NCBI RefSeq assembly: GCF_005047635.1
Contig: NZ_SUKC01000001.1
Span: 372,001-436,000, forward strand
Source of the DNA: Arthrobacter sp. CAU 1506
GTDB taxonomy: Bacteria > Actinomycetota > Actinomycetes > Actinomycetales > Micrococcaceae
Length of the DNA: 64,000 nucleotides
Direction: 5' to 3'
Positions 22,316 through 36,671 of the stretch are shown piece by piece. A program made the position numbers and the translations under genes. Position 1 is the stretch's first letter. Every line of letters starts with the position of its first letter. The notes under the pieces were generated by a model that did not search any database, was not told the DNA's origin, and was given only the letters and a program-made list of their open reading frames with translations.

Positions 22316-23230
22316 CTATCTTATGCCTGCAAAGAAATCCGTCTCGGGCACGCTGGTCTCCACCCGTGCGTGGATCAGCGAGAAATCCTCCCAGGGCCAG
22401 ACCGTCCGCTGCATCTCCTCGGAGACGGCGAAGAAGAACCCCGCAGGCTCCACCTGGGTCCGGTGCGAGAGCAACGCGCGGTCGCGGTGGCGGAAGAAGT
22501 CGCCGCAGTCGATCTGCGTGGTGGTGCGGTGGTTCGGCATCGGCGGCTGGTGGCCTTCGGCGTCGGCCTCCAGCCATGCCGCGAGGCGCGCCGCGTAGGG
22601 CGACTGCAGCCCTGCTTCCTCCAGCGCATAGTGGAGTGCGCGGAACCGCTCCGGGTTGAAAGCACGGTCATAGTAGAGCTTCAGCGGCTCCCAGGCGCTG
22701 CCCGCCTCCGGATAACGCTCGGGGTCACCGGCTGCGTGGTACGCCTCCACCGCCACCTTGTGGGCCATGATGTGGTCCGGGTGCGGATAGCCACCGTTCT
22801 CGTCGTAGCTGATCACCACATGCGGCCGGAACTCACGCACCAGTTTGACCAGCGGCGCGGCGGCCCGCTCCAGCGGCAGCGTGGCGAAGCTGCCGAACGG
22901 CAGCGGCGGCAGCGGGTCTCCCTCCGGCAGGCCGGAATCTGCGAACCCCAACCAGCGCTGTTGGATACCCAACTCGGCCGCGGCCTGCGCCATTTCGACC
23001 CGGCGGATCCCGGCAAGGTCCCGGTGCGCCTGCGGATCCGAGGCCGCCTCGGCATTGAGAATGTCTCCGCGCTCACCGCCGGTGCAGGTAGCAACCATCA
23101 CCTGGACGCCCTCGGCGGCATAACGCGCCATCGAGGCCGCGCCTTTACTGGATTCGTCGTCCGGATGGGCATGGACCGCCAGCAGGCGCAGGCCGTCACT
23201 CTGCGCTGGCTGGGATGCATCGAAGCTCAC
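22316..23230 (-). CDS. mca: mycothiol S-conjugate amidase
   Basis: Zinc amidase that cleaves mycothiol S-conjugates to release mercapturic acids, detoxifying electrophiles; mycothiol occurs only in actinobacteria. The LmbE-like fold shows AHPDDESSKG with the metal His, Asp and Glu, and GYPHPDHIMAHK with the third ligand; the C-terminal FFRHRDRALLSHRTQVEP is characteristic. The homologous deacetylase MshB shares motifs, but length and C-terminus fit Mca. I choose the GTG at 23230 with AGGAG upstream (304 aa). DUF4307 is divergent. Confidence 0.93.
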   Translation of the reverse strand: MSFDASQPAQSDGLRLLAVHAHPDDESSKGAASMARYAAEGVQVMVATCTGGERGDILNAEAASDPQAHRDLAGIRRVEMAQAAAELGIQQRWLGFADSGLPEGDPLPPLPFGSFATLPLERAAAPLVKLVREFRPHVVISYDENGGYPHPDHIMAHKVAVEAYHAAGDPERYPEAGSAWEPLKLYYDRAFNPERFRALHYALEEAGLQSPYAARLAAWLEADAEGHQPPMPNHRTTTQIDCGDFFRHRDRALLSHRTQVEPAGFFFAVSEEMQRTVWPWEDFSLIHARVETSVPETDFFAGIR

Positions 23231-23280
23231 GTGGCTGCTCCTGGGAAATCTGGCGTGGGCGGGAGGATAAACTTGAGGGC

Positions 23281-23727
23281 GTGAGCACCGCAGGCCCCCG
23301 TACTCCTCAGACTTCCTCCAGCTTAACTGTTTCCAACCGTTACGGCACACCACGGCGATCGCTGTCCCGCCGCGCCAAACTTGCGCTGGCTGGCGGAGCC
23401 CTTGGAGTCGCCGTTATTGGCGCAGGCTTTTTTGCCCTGGGCCAAAACGGGCCGCAGATTGAGAGCAAGGACGTTGGCTTCACCGTGGCCGACGCCGGAC
23501 ACATCACCGTGGATTTCCAAGTCACCAAGGATCCGGAAGCCACCGTTCACTGCGCGGTGCAGGCCCTGAGCGACAACTATGCGGTGGTCGGCTGGAAGGT
23601 GGCCACGATTGGTCCCGCCGACGAAGCTACTTCCGGGACCACAGCGCACCGTGTCCAGCTCAGGACTGAATCCATGGCGGTCTCCGGCGGTGTGGACAGC
23701 TGCTGGGCCGACGACGCCAACAGCTGA
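23281..23727 (+). CDS. DUF4307 family membrane protein
   Basis: 148 aa, with a single transmembrane helix at about residues 33-55 (LALAGGALGVAVIGAGFFAL) and an extracytoplasmic domain of about 90 residues containing two Cys (VHCAVQAL and DSCWADD) that may form a disulphide. The family is a conserved actinobacterial one next to mca and greA, of unknown function. GTG 23281 is used; it is divergent from mca with a 50-base gap. Confidence 0.75.
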   Translation: MSTAGPRTPQTSSSLTVSNRYGTPRRSLSRRAKLALAGGALGVAVIGAGFFALGQNGPQIESKDVGFTVADAGHITVDFQVTKDPEATVHCAVQALSDNYAVVGWKVATIGPADEATSGTTAHRVQLRTESMAVSGGVDSCWADDANS

Positions 23728-23820
23728 CGCAGCACTCACCGCGGTACCGCGCCATCCGGCCCCTACCGGTCCGGCCGGCCGCACCCCGAATGGGTGAAAA
23801 CTTCCTTTACCACCTTGTTA

Positions 23821-23850
23821 TTGGGAAATCCGGCGACGGCTGACTACAAT
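23821..23850 (+). promoter_or_regulatory. candidate greA promoter
   Basis: TTGGGA at 23821-23826 and TACAAT at 23845-23850 with an 18-base spacer. The predicted transcript would start near 23857, just before the structured leader, leaving a 5' UTR of about 170 nt. Confidence 0.5.
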
Positions 23851-23856
23851 TGAGCA

Positions 23857-23975
23857 AATACATTCCGCCCCGCCAAGCTGGTGAACTGGGAACATCCCAG
23901 AACGAATTGATTCACCACCACGGCGGGGTCTTTGCATCAAGTGGCCGCCGGCATGGCGGCCTTTTGTGCAAAGTG
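23857..23975 (+). ncRNA. structured 5' leader of greA (candidate regulatory RNA)
   Basis: Two nested hairpin domains. Domain 1: CCCCGCC 23868-23874 with GGCGGGG 23922-23928; inside, TGGTGAA 23879-23885 with TTCACCA 23911-23917; innermost CTGGGA-ACA-TCCCAG 23886-23900; and a 10-nt bulge at 23901-23910. Domain 2: CTTTGCA 23930-23936 with TGCAAAG 23967-23973, enclosing GGCCGCC 23943-23949 with GGCGGCC 23955-23961 followed by TTTT. All stems are perfect. The inner stem plus TTTT could also act as a terminator. The greA ribosome binding site begins at 24017. I cannot assign it to a known RNA family. Confidence 0.65.
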
Positions 23976-24028
23976 CCACCGTGCCGGCACCGCGTCCAGC
24001 GGCTCCGGCAGCAATTAAGGAGAACTAC

Positions 24029-24520
24029 GTGTCCACTTCCAGCGCACCCGTCGCCTGGCTCACTCAGGAAGCCTACGACCGCCTGAAGGCTGAACTGGAT
24101 CACCTTTCGGGCCCCGGCCGGGCAGAGATCGTCGACCGCATCGAACAGGCCCGCTCCGAGGGGGATCTCAAGGAGAACGGCGGCTACCACGCGGCCAAGG
24201 AAGAACAGGGCAAGGCTGAAGCCCGGATCCGCCAGCTCACCGACCTGCTGCGGAATGCGCACGTGGGCGAAGCACCGGCAGATGACGGAGTCGTCGAGCC
24301 GGGCATGGTCATCGAGGCCAAGGTCGCCGGCGACACCGAGCGCTTCCTGCTCGGCAGCCGCGAGGTTGCCGGCGAATCCGACTTGGACGTGTACAGCGAA
24401 AAGTCCCCGCTCGGCGCGGCCATCCACGGTCTGCGGGCGGGAGATTCCACCACCTACGCTGCCCCGAACGGCAAGCAGATTTCGGTGGAAATCATCTCGG
24501 CCACTCCTTACACCGGCTGA
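24029..24520 (+). CDS. greA: transcription elongation factor GreA
   Basis: Stimulates cleavage of backtracked transcripts by RNA polymerase. The 163-aa protein has the N-terminal coiled coil (LTQEAYDRLKAELDHL onward; acidic tip region EGDLKENGGYHAAKEEQ) and a C-terminal FKBP-like domain (FLLGSREVAG, SPLGAAIHGLRAGD, Gly-rich). GTG 24029 is chosen for the AAGGAGA immediately upstream. It has its own probable promoter and a long structured leader, and is closed by a very strong terminator. Confidence 0.97.
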   Translation: MSTSSAPVAWLTQEAYDRLKAELDHLSGPGRAEIVDRIEQARSEGDLKENGGYHAAKEEQGKAEARIRQLTDLLRNAHVGEAPADDGVVEPGMVIEAKVAGDTERFLLGSREVAGESDLDVYSEKSPLGAAIHGLRAGDSTTYAAPNGKQISVEIISATPYTG

Positions 24521-24533
24521 TCAAGCACGCTGA

Positions 24534-24580
24534 CAGACGCGGAAGGCGGGTTCCCTGAGGGAACCCGCCTTCCGCGTCTG
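24534..24580 (+). terminator. strong intrinsic terminator of greA
   Basis: Perfect 23-bp arms (24534-24556 and 24558-24580) around a single central G, 14 bases after the greA stop. The arms start CAGACGCGGAAGG. It lacks a long T-run. Confidence 0.85.
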
Positions 24581-24625
24581 TACGGGTCGATAGCCGGCAG
24601 CCGTGACGGGCGGACGCCCATGCGG

Positions 24626-25201
24626 TCAGCCGAGTCGGGGCTTTCGACGGCGCAGCAGCACGGCGGCGATCACTCCGCCGACTGCCCCGAAGAGGTGGGC
24701 CTGCCAGGAAATGCCGGGCACCGCCGTCGGCAGCACACCCCACAGCACCGAGCCGTAGAAAATGAAGATGACCGCGGCCAGCAAGATCTGTCGCCAACTG
24801 CGGTTGTAGAAGCCGCGCACCAACAGATAGGTCAGCAGCCCGAAGACCACGCCCGAAGCGCCGATCGTCAGTCCCGCGCCCGTCAGCCAGACGCCCAGCC
24901 CGGAGGCCAGCCAGCTGCAGGACAGCACCACCAGGAACCGCCGGATCCCTTCCAGCAGCGTCAGGAACCCGAGCACCAGCAGCGGCAGTGTGTTGCTCAA
25001 CAGGTGGCTGGTATCAGCATGCAGCAGCGGGGCGAAGAGCACGCCGTCCAGCCCGTCCACCCGCCGGGGCGCAATCCCCAGCAGCGGGCTGAAGTAGCCT
25101 CCGGCGATCATATTGACCAGAAAGGCTGCCCAGAGCAACACCGCAAATACCCCGGCTCCGGCCAGGGCCTGGGCGGGGCGCAGGGCCTGACTGCCGGCCA
25201 C
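24626..25201 (-). CDS. rhomboid-family intramembrane serine protease
   Basis: 191 aa with six predicted helices. The catalytic Ser is in GASGVVFG and the His in WQAHLFGAVGG; HADTSHLLSNTLPL in helix 2 matches the rhomboid HxxxN region. It cleaves substrates within the membrane; targets are unknown. The GTG at 25201 lies three bases beyond the ilvA stop, so it is probably the last gene of the AI-2E-ilvA operon. Confidence 0.88.
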   Translation of the reverse strand: MAGSQALRPAQALAGAGVFAVLLWAAFLVNMIAGGYFSPLLGIAPRRVDGLDGVLFAPLLHADTSHLLSNTLPLLVLGFLTLLEGIRRFLVVLSCSWLASGLGVWLTGAGLTIGASGVVFGLLTYLLVRGFYNRSWRQILLAAVIFIFYGSVLWGVLPTAVPGISWQAHLFGAVGGVIAAVLLRRRKPRLG

Positions 25202-36598: not shown

Positions 36599-36671
36599 TA
36601 CCCCCGGTGGGACTCGAACCCACACTGGACCGATTTTAAGTCGGTTGTCTCTGCCATTGGACTACGGGGGC
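36599..36671 (-). tRNA. tRNA with UAA anticodon (Leu by codon, class I size)
   Basis: Cloverleaf read on the minus strand, 73 nt: acceptor GCCCCCG/CGGGGGT (first pair G-U), D-arm with 3 bp, anticodon stem ACCGA/TCGGT with loop CTTAAAA (anticodon TAA), 5-nt variable loop, T-arm GTGGG/CCCAC with TTCGAGT, and discriminator A. CCA is not encoded. UAA would read UUA (leucine), yet leucine tRNAs normally have a long variable arm, absent here. Isolated gene between livK and a GNAT gene. The RNA gene is well supported; its amino-acid identity is not. Confidence 0.85.

Follow-up and report, generated by a model that had tools for sequence, protein, structure and literature searches.

A conserved hairpin before actinobacterial greA, a probable leader terminator

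The greA gene of Arthrobacter sp. CAU 1506 is preceded by a structured leader. Judging from the sequences of relatives, the conserved part of the leader is a long hairpin (domain 1) with its U-rich tail, not the second hairpin (domain 2) downstream of it. Position, structure, and U-rich tail are conserved, and the element is specific for greA. We propose that domain 1 and its tail probably form a promoter-proximal intrinsic terminator in the greA 5′ leader, predicted to attenuate greA.

The locus lies in a stretch of 64,000 nt (the window; assembly GCF_005047635.1, contig NZ_SUKC01000001.1, positions 372,001-436,000, forward strand), in whose coordinates the features are listed in Table 1. Upstream of greA, on the same strand, a DUF4307 gene (Pfam) ends at 23727, with a PIG-L family deacetylase beyond it. 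An earlier note on this DNA had pointed to the promoter-like pair TTGGGA/TACAAT. The pair is present and is the sole such site found in 22800-25200, where 0.2 would be expected from shuffles. Transcription is predicted to start at about 23857, placed by the usual distance from the -10 box. In the greA leaders of relatives, the -10 box occupies the same place ahead of the hairpin, and ATAC lies between box and hairpin in 45 of 65 Micrococcaceae leaders, namely those with both hairpin and tail by the filter described below. Read by eye, six loci (L038, L040, L052, L056, L061, and L150) have a predicted greA -10 box that shares bases with the stop codon of DUF4307, the gene upstream. On the 3′ side of greA, the window carries a long perfect hairpin at 24533-24581, which has no U tail and is unlike the leader hairpin.

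Table 1 Features of the greA leader and gene in the window.
Feature	Position	Strand	Details
Predicted greA promoter, TTGGGA - 18 nt - TACAAT	23821-23850	+	TTGGGA 23821-23826; TACAAT 23845-23850
ATAC just after the predicted start	23858-23861	+	Common in Micrococcaceae
Domain 1, long hairpin with outer stem, two inner stems, and 10-nt bulge	23868-23928	+	Folding z -6.2; outer stem CCCCGCC 23868-23874 / GGCGGGG 23922-23928; inner stem TGGTGAA 23879-23885 / TTCACCA 23911-23917; innermost stem CTGGGA 23886-23891 / TCCCAG 23895-23900; bulge 23901-23910
U-rich tail TCTTTGCATC, proposed termination zone	23929-23938	+	T-richness, kept motif; TCTTTGC 23929-23935
Domain 2, second hairpin	23930-23973	+	Outer arms CTTTGCA 23930-23936 / TGCAAAG 23967-23973, around inner arms GGCCGCC 23943-23949 / GGCGGCC 23955-23961 and TTTT 23962-23965
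Third hairpin, TGCCGG / CCGGCA	23982-24010	+	Arms 23982-23987 and 24005-24010; ahead of the greA Shine-Dalgarno sequence
greA Shine-Dalgarno sequence AAGGAG	24017-24022	+	Sequence
greA, GTG start at 24029	24029-24520	+	Pfam GreA_GreB_N 2e-28, GreA_GreB 1.2e-11

The same note had described two nested, perfectly paired domains, the first with three stacked stems and a 10-nt bulge, and had judged them to be beyond chance. All of these parts are present in the sequence. The folding energy of 23857-23975 is -61.7 kcal/mol, as compared with a mean of -37.4 kcal/mol (sd 3.9) for dinucleotide shuffles (z -6.2), none of which is as stable (0/200), in agreement with that judgement. The segment 23857-24040 gives a z of -5.9.

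Conservation was assessed in at least 80 greA loci from named genomes and in further loci from other genomes, with family and order labels taken from record titles and kinship labels. After L111 was left out and L142 and L146 were lost to wrong orientation, 196 leaders were kept for reading. Most Micrococcaceae leaders, read by eye, present a -10 box, then CCCCGC...GCGGGG, then TCTTTGC[AT]TG. An Arthrobacter-like greA with a Micrococcaceae leader also occurs on two contigs whose titles read Vibrio cholerae 35D (L004; 82% identity) and Acidobacteria MAG G2_11 (L011; 77% identity); the titles probably reflect contamination or mislabelling. In L008 and L026, GCTTGTTTGACCA is tandemly duplicated between the leader hairpin and greA.

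An unanchored search for the most stable hairpin often picked other structures in these GC-rich leaders. It was replaced by an automatic search for the best hairpin beginning 3-36 nt after the best -10 box, with 11 leaders of unclear start or orientation set aside (L124, L143, L144, L147, L160, L161, L171, L177, L180, L186, and L192). In this anchored search, which used the same data as the unanchored one and was chosen after the sequences were seen, a hairpin is present in 74/75 Micrococcaceae, in 51/61 from the rest of the order, and in 34/49 from the rest of the class. A joint test for a strong hairpin with at least four T in an 8-nt tail was applied to 41, 45, and 33 representatives, respectively, after removal of leaders for which no promoter had been scored (8 from the rest of the order, 4 from the rest of the class) and then of near-duplicates. 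The combination precedes greA in 32/41 Micrococcaceae, 14/45 others of the order, and 1/33 others of the class; the corresponding rates in shuffled leaders are 0.61%, 0.33%, and 0.00%. None of 33 other promoter-like sites, taken from the window and 33 of these loci, has such a hairpin with tail.

Hairpin and tail are found together in 65 of the 74 Micrococcaceae leaders, and in 61 of these 65 the hairpin starts 13-18 nt past the -10 box. The distance from hairpin to start codon ranges from 27 to 137 nt and is 40 nt or less in 26 of the 65, leaving no room for a promoter there, so that greA transcripts must cross the hairpin. In 53 of the 74 leaders, TTTGC[AT]T follows no more than 3 nt from the stem, and the first 8 nt of the tail hold 4.2 T on average as compared with 1.6 in shuffles.

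For alignment A1, 40 of the 74 Micrococcaceae leaders were picked and two were dropped for a wrong anchor (L100 and L103), leaving 38. The outer stem of domain 1 is nearly invariant in these. Covariation is accordingly almost nil (term -0.09, with two-sided change at one of seven pairs), there being so little variation in the outer five pairs. Although its sequence is not conserved, the interior of domain 1 folds better than shuffles, with a mean z of -1.73 over 37 leaders that are related and not independent; z is below -1 in 70% of them.

Domain 2 behaves differently from domain 1. Among eight leaders of the genus read by eye, the inner stem of domain 2 is recognisable in six, and the U run that comes straight after it and the complete outer stem occur only in the window's species. 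Because its U run is so confined, domain 2 was rejected as the main terminator. The built-in terminator that the earlier note had suggested thus survives as the probable terminator of a structured greA leader but not as domain 2, which is not kept outside the genus, whereas domain 1 with its tail is. In the window, the domain 1 tail overlaps the 5′ arm of domain 2. The arms of the third hairpin are recognisable in six of the eight genus leaders.

Leaders of the same layout precede greA in two further families, f22 and f37, which we infer to be Mycobacteriaceae and Streptomycetaceae. In the Mycobacteriaceae-type, a hairpin such as TACACGGTTCC...GGAACCGTGTA occupies the first bases of the predicted transcript in 29 of 30 leaders (by eye), with TTGCTGCATT or a variant as the tail. 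Alignment A2 comprises 26 of the 30 leaders (L254 and L258 had a wrong anchor, L277 is a duplicate, and L279 has no hairpin). All 274 of 274 stem cells are paired, and two-sided changes occur at 4 of 11 pairs. No shuffle of 500 reaches this covariation, and no slide of the alignment comes close. Compensatory changes, which the earlier note had proposed to look for in homologous leaders, are clear in the Mycobacteriaceae-type but almost lacking in the Micrococcaceae outer stem.

In the Streptomycetaceae-type, the commonest form is TTGTTAGGCTCGTGGTTTCGCCC... and GGGCGTTGCTTTGTA. Alignment A3 comprises 22 of 29 distinct stretches (30 loci), without the divergent L281, L282, and L284, the near-duplicates L290 and L296, and L308 and L310, in which the usual arm is absent. 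Pairing is retained in 89.8% of 216 cells, and 19 cells have two-sided changes as compared with 5.5 in shuffles. We regard this alignment as weaker evidence, since the number of pairs with two-sided changes is not above that of shuffles (4 vs 2.7; 90/500) and shifting the alignment by +1 gives a similar result (5 pairs, and 18 cells vs 19).

In both alignments, the hairpin starts 7-8 nt past the -10 box, where the RNA itself would begin. The families share place and shape and differ in stem and loop sequences. T is more frequent in the tail than elsewhere in the leader, at 0.44 vs 0.15 in the Mycobacteriaceae-type (25/30 leaders) and 0.48 vs 0.10 in the Streptomycetaceae-type (26/30), values that include a few leaders whose tail was misplaced in parsing (two of the Mycobacteriaceae-type and at least one of the Streptomycetaceae-type). 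A TTGC motif in the tail was considered as a general feature and dropped: it occurs in 25/40 Micrococcaceae and 19/30 Mycobacteriaceae-type leaders but in only 4/30 of the Streptomycetaceae-type, and elsewhere in 2/43 other order members and 9/79 terminator-like sites of the window's own genome.

A hairpin at the very start of an mRNA could serve another purpose. It may shield greA mRNA from 5′-end-dependent RNases and not stop transcription at all. This is the main rival to a terminator, and we consider it rather unlikely. It would account for a hairpin whose first base lies some 10 nt or less from the predicted start, or at the first RNA bases in the Mycobacteriaceae- and Streptomycetaceae-types, and for a sequence that is free to vary while pairing is kept. 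It leaves unexplained the U-rich, sequence-conserved 8-10 nt after the stem.

The leader might also hide or free the greA ribosome-binding site. In 38 leaders, the Shine-Dalgarno core is predicted to be unpaired with an intermediate mean probability of 0.43, which leaves some scope for such control. The Shine-Dalgarno sequence lies outside domain 1, however, and the variable distance between hairpin and start codon makes translational control improbable.

The specificity of the element was examined with covariance models built from the greA leader alignments: R1 (Micrococcaceae), R2 (Mycobacteriaceae-type), and R3 (Streptomycetaceae-type). In genome searches, in which stricter filters were used for sets of more than 40 genomes and weak matches were lost, R1 matches 90 of 149 Micrococcaceae genomes, R2 83 of 101 Mycobacteriaceae-type genomes, and R3 all 41 Streptomycetaceae-type genomes, leaving 59/149 Micrococcaceae and 18/101 Mycobacteriaceae-type genomes without a match. 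Within the window's genus, R1 matches 10 of 10. Primary matches could be compared with known greA coordinates for 30 of 92 genomes matched by R1, 49 of 83 by R2, and 41 of 41 by R3; all 120 lie on the same strand as greA and no more than 320 nt upstream of it. R1 and R3 give a single match per genome. R2 gives eleven second matches, ten of which are the opposite strand of the same site and one of which is a weak match elsewhere (G492, 27.5 bits). Finding greA leaders is expected, since the models were trained on them; what is informative is the lack of any further match beyond the R2 echoes and the one weak match.

These results bear on the suggestion that the leader is a riboswitch-like attenuator sensing a protein or a ligand. 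The leader length and the several stacked stems in the window are compatible with a sensor, and leader attenuators often sense something. Against this, there is no conserved aptamer core: the interior of domain 1 is unrelated in sequence even within Micrococcaceae, and the stems are unrelated between families. The element serves one gene only, occurring once per genome and before greA in every checked match with the one weak exception, and no Rfam family scores above its cut-off. A permissive Rfam scan of 23720-24100 returned six matches up to E 10, none of them a greA leader; the sole Rfam match in the window as a whole is a minus-strand tRNA gene at 36599-36671. We therefore regard the ligand sensor put forward in the earlier note as very improbable. 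Least credible of all is a chance terminator of the upstream DUF4307 gene, whose same-strand transcripts the hairpin would stop too, given that the predicted greA promoter precedes the hairpin at a fixed distance and that 26/65 leaders have no room for another promoter.

Place, shape, and U-rich tail are kept between families, and stem, loop, and interior are not. This pattern fits a terminator acting on RNA polymerase, not an aptamer. In the proposed mechanism, RNA polymerase starting near 23857 would make a GC-rich hairpin within the first 70 nt. Over the U-rich residues that follow, some polymerases would release an RNA of ~80 nt, and the others would read through into greA. The released RNA (about 23857-23937) would resemble GraL, the short RNA of the E. 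coli greA leader. The set point would probably depend on polymerase state (on GreA itself, if E. coli GraL is a guide, and perhaps on NusG) and not on a bound metabolite, because only shape, place, and U-rich tail are kept between families. Termination, its extent, feedback by GreA, and any action of the short RNA in trans are inferred.

A hairpin with a U-rich tail lies near the predicted greA transcription start, as in GraL-type leaders. By a strict, E. coli-like definition of intrinsic terminators (GC-rich stem, then at least 5 T in 8), domain 1 of the window fails with 4 T in 8. Strict scans pass over it and flag the inner hairpin of domain 2 instead. Some other members of the order, among them L045 (TTTTTCG) and L079 (TTTTTT), have tails that pass; the Mycobacteriaceae-type tail is poorer still in T than the domain 1 tail of the window. 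Interrupted tails also follow other terminator-like hairpins of the window's genome (79 sites in 464 kb, many of which may be chance). According to the available text of a review, canonical terminators are scarce in mycobacteria and NusG strongly stimulates intrinsic termination there (PMC12288462). The tail of 4 T in 8 and this scarcity count against a terminator, as do the near-nil Micrococcaceae covariation, the weak Streptomycetaceae-type alignment, the 1/33 outside the order, and the model-negative genomes.

GreA levels set the rescue of backtracked RNA polymerase. A broader and more tentative possibility is that greA leader attenuators exist throughout the actinobacteria and arose apart from those of enterobacteria and bacilli. 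The hairpin with its imperfect U tract might itself sense RNA polymerase pausing or backtracking, and hence GreA activity, without an aptamer or leader peptide, and the released 5′ RNA might act in trans like GraL. In E. coli, GreA limits its own synthesis via a leader terminator. If the same is true in actinobacteria, the shared place, hairpin, and imperfect U tract narrow what the sensor can be, and the three families provide ready natural variants for testing it. The three covariance models now describe a leader that is absent from Rfam.

In the part of the open-licence literature covered, no report of an actinobacterial greA leader was found. Under the terms used, the leader is not discussed in the available portions of a mycobacterial GreA paper (PMC7104715) and of two transcript-end papers (PMC10937400, PMC8780764). 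A table entry in another paper, itself available in part, places a WhiB7 binding site upstream of greA in Mycobacterium abscessus (PMC10727445), and a second layer of greA control via WhiB7 is thus possible in that species.

Attenuation as such has precedents in these bacteria and for this gene. Seliverstov et al. are said to have described, in 2005, leader-peptide attenuators of amino-acid genes in actinobacteria (PMC1262725). The greA leader is like them in being a candidate for attenuation in an actinobacterial leader. It differs in that no leader peptide was recognised in reading the leaders, where the structure begins near +10 and compact forms offer little space for one. For greA, leader terminators have been predicted in several lineages: as far as the available text goes, Naville and Gautheret 2010 (PMC2965389), on greA and rnk leaders, name Proteobacteria, bacilli, and Clostridia and give few terminator predictions in Actinobacteria. 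Antiterminators are described there, whereas none was identified in the actinobacterial leader.

The closest comparison is the E. coli greA leader with its short RNA GraL (RF01769; Dylewski et al. 2019, PMC6829880). According to the available portions of that paper, the hairpin spans +19 to +48 and about two thirds of the transcripts end there, GraL falls about 4-fold without greA, and GreA must be catalytically active to lower read-through; the sequence of the hairpin counts in addition to its structure, and the effect is not seen in vitro. The gene is the same, and in both cases a hairpin in the first tens of nucleotides is followed by a U-rich tail (GACCTGGG..CCCGGGTC and TATTTTTTTGC in E. 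coli, locus L250). Termination and GreA dependence are demonstrated in E. coli and only predicted for the actinobacterial leader. The actinobacterial tail is interrupted and poorer in U, the hairpin starts nearer +1, and there is no similarity in sequence or model. RF01769 scores 127.5 bits on E. coli as a positive control and, at the gathering score, has no match in nine actinobacterial loci or the window, in keeping with the earlier suggestion of an unrelated analogue of GraL. Bacteria may therefore have found the same GreA throttle more than once, with the actinobacterial leader like that of E. coli in kind and unrelated to it in sequence.
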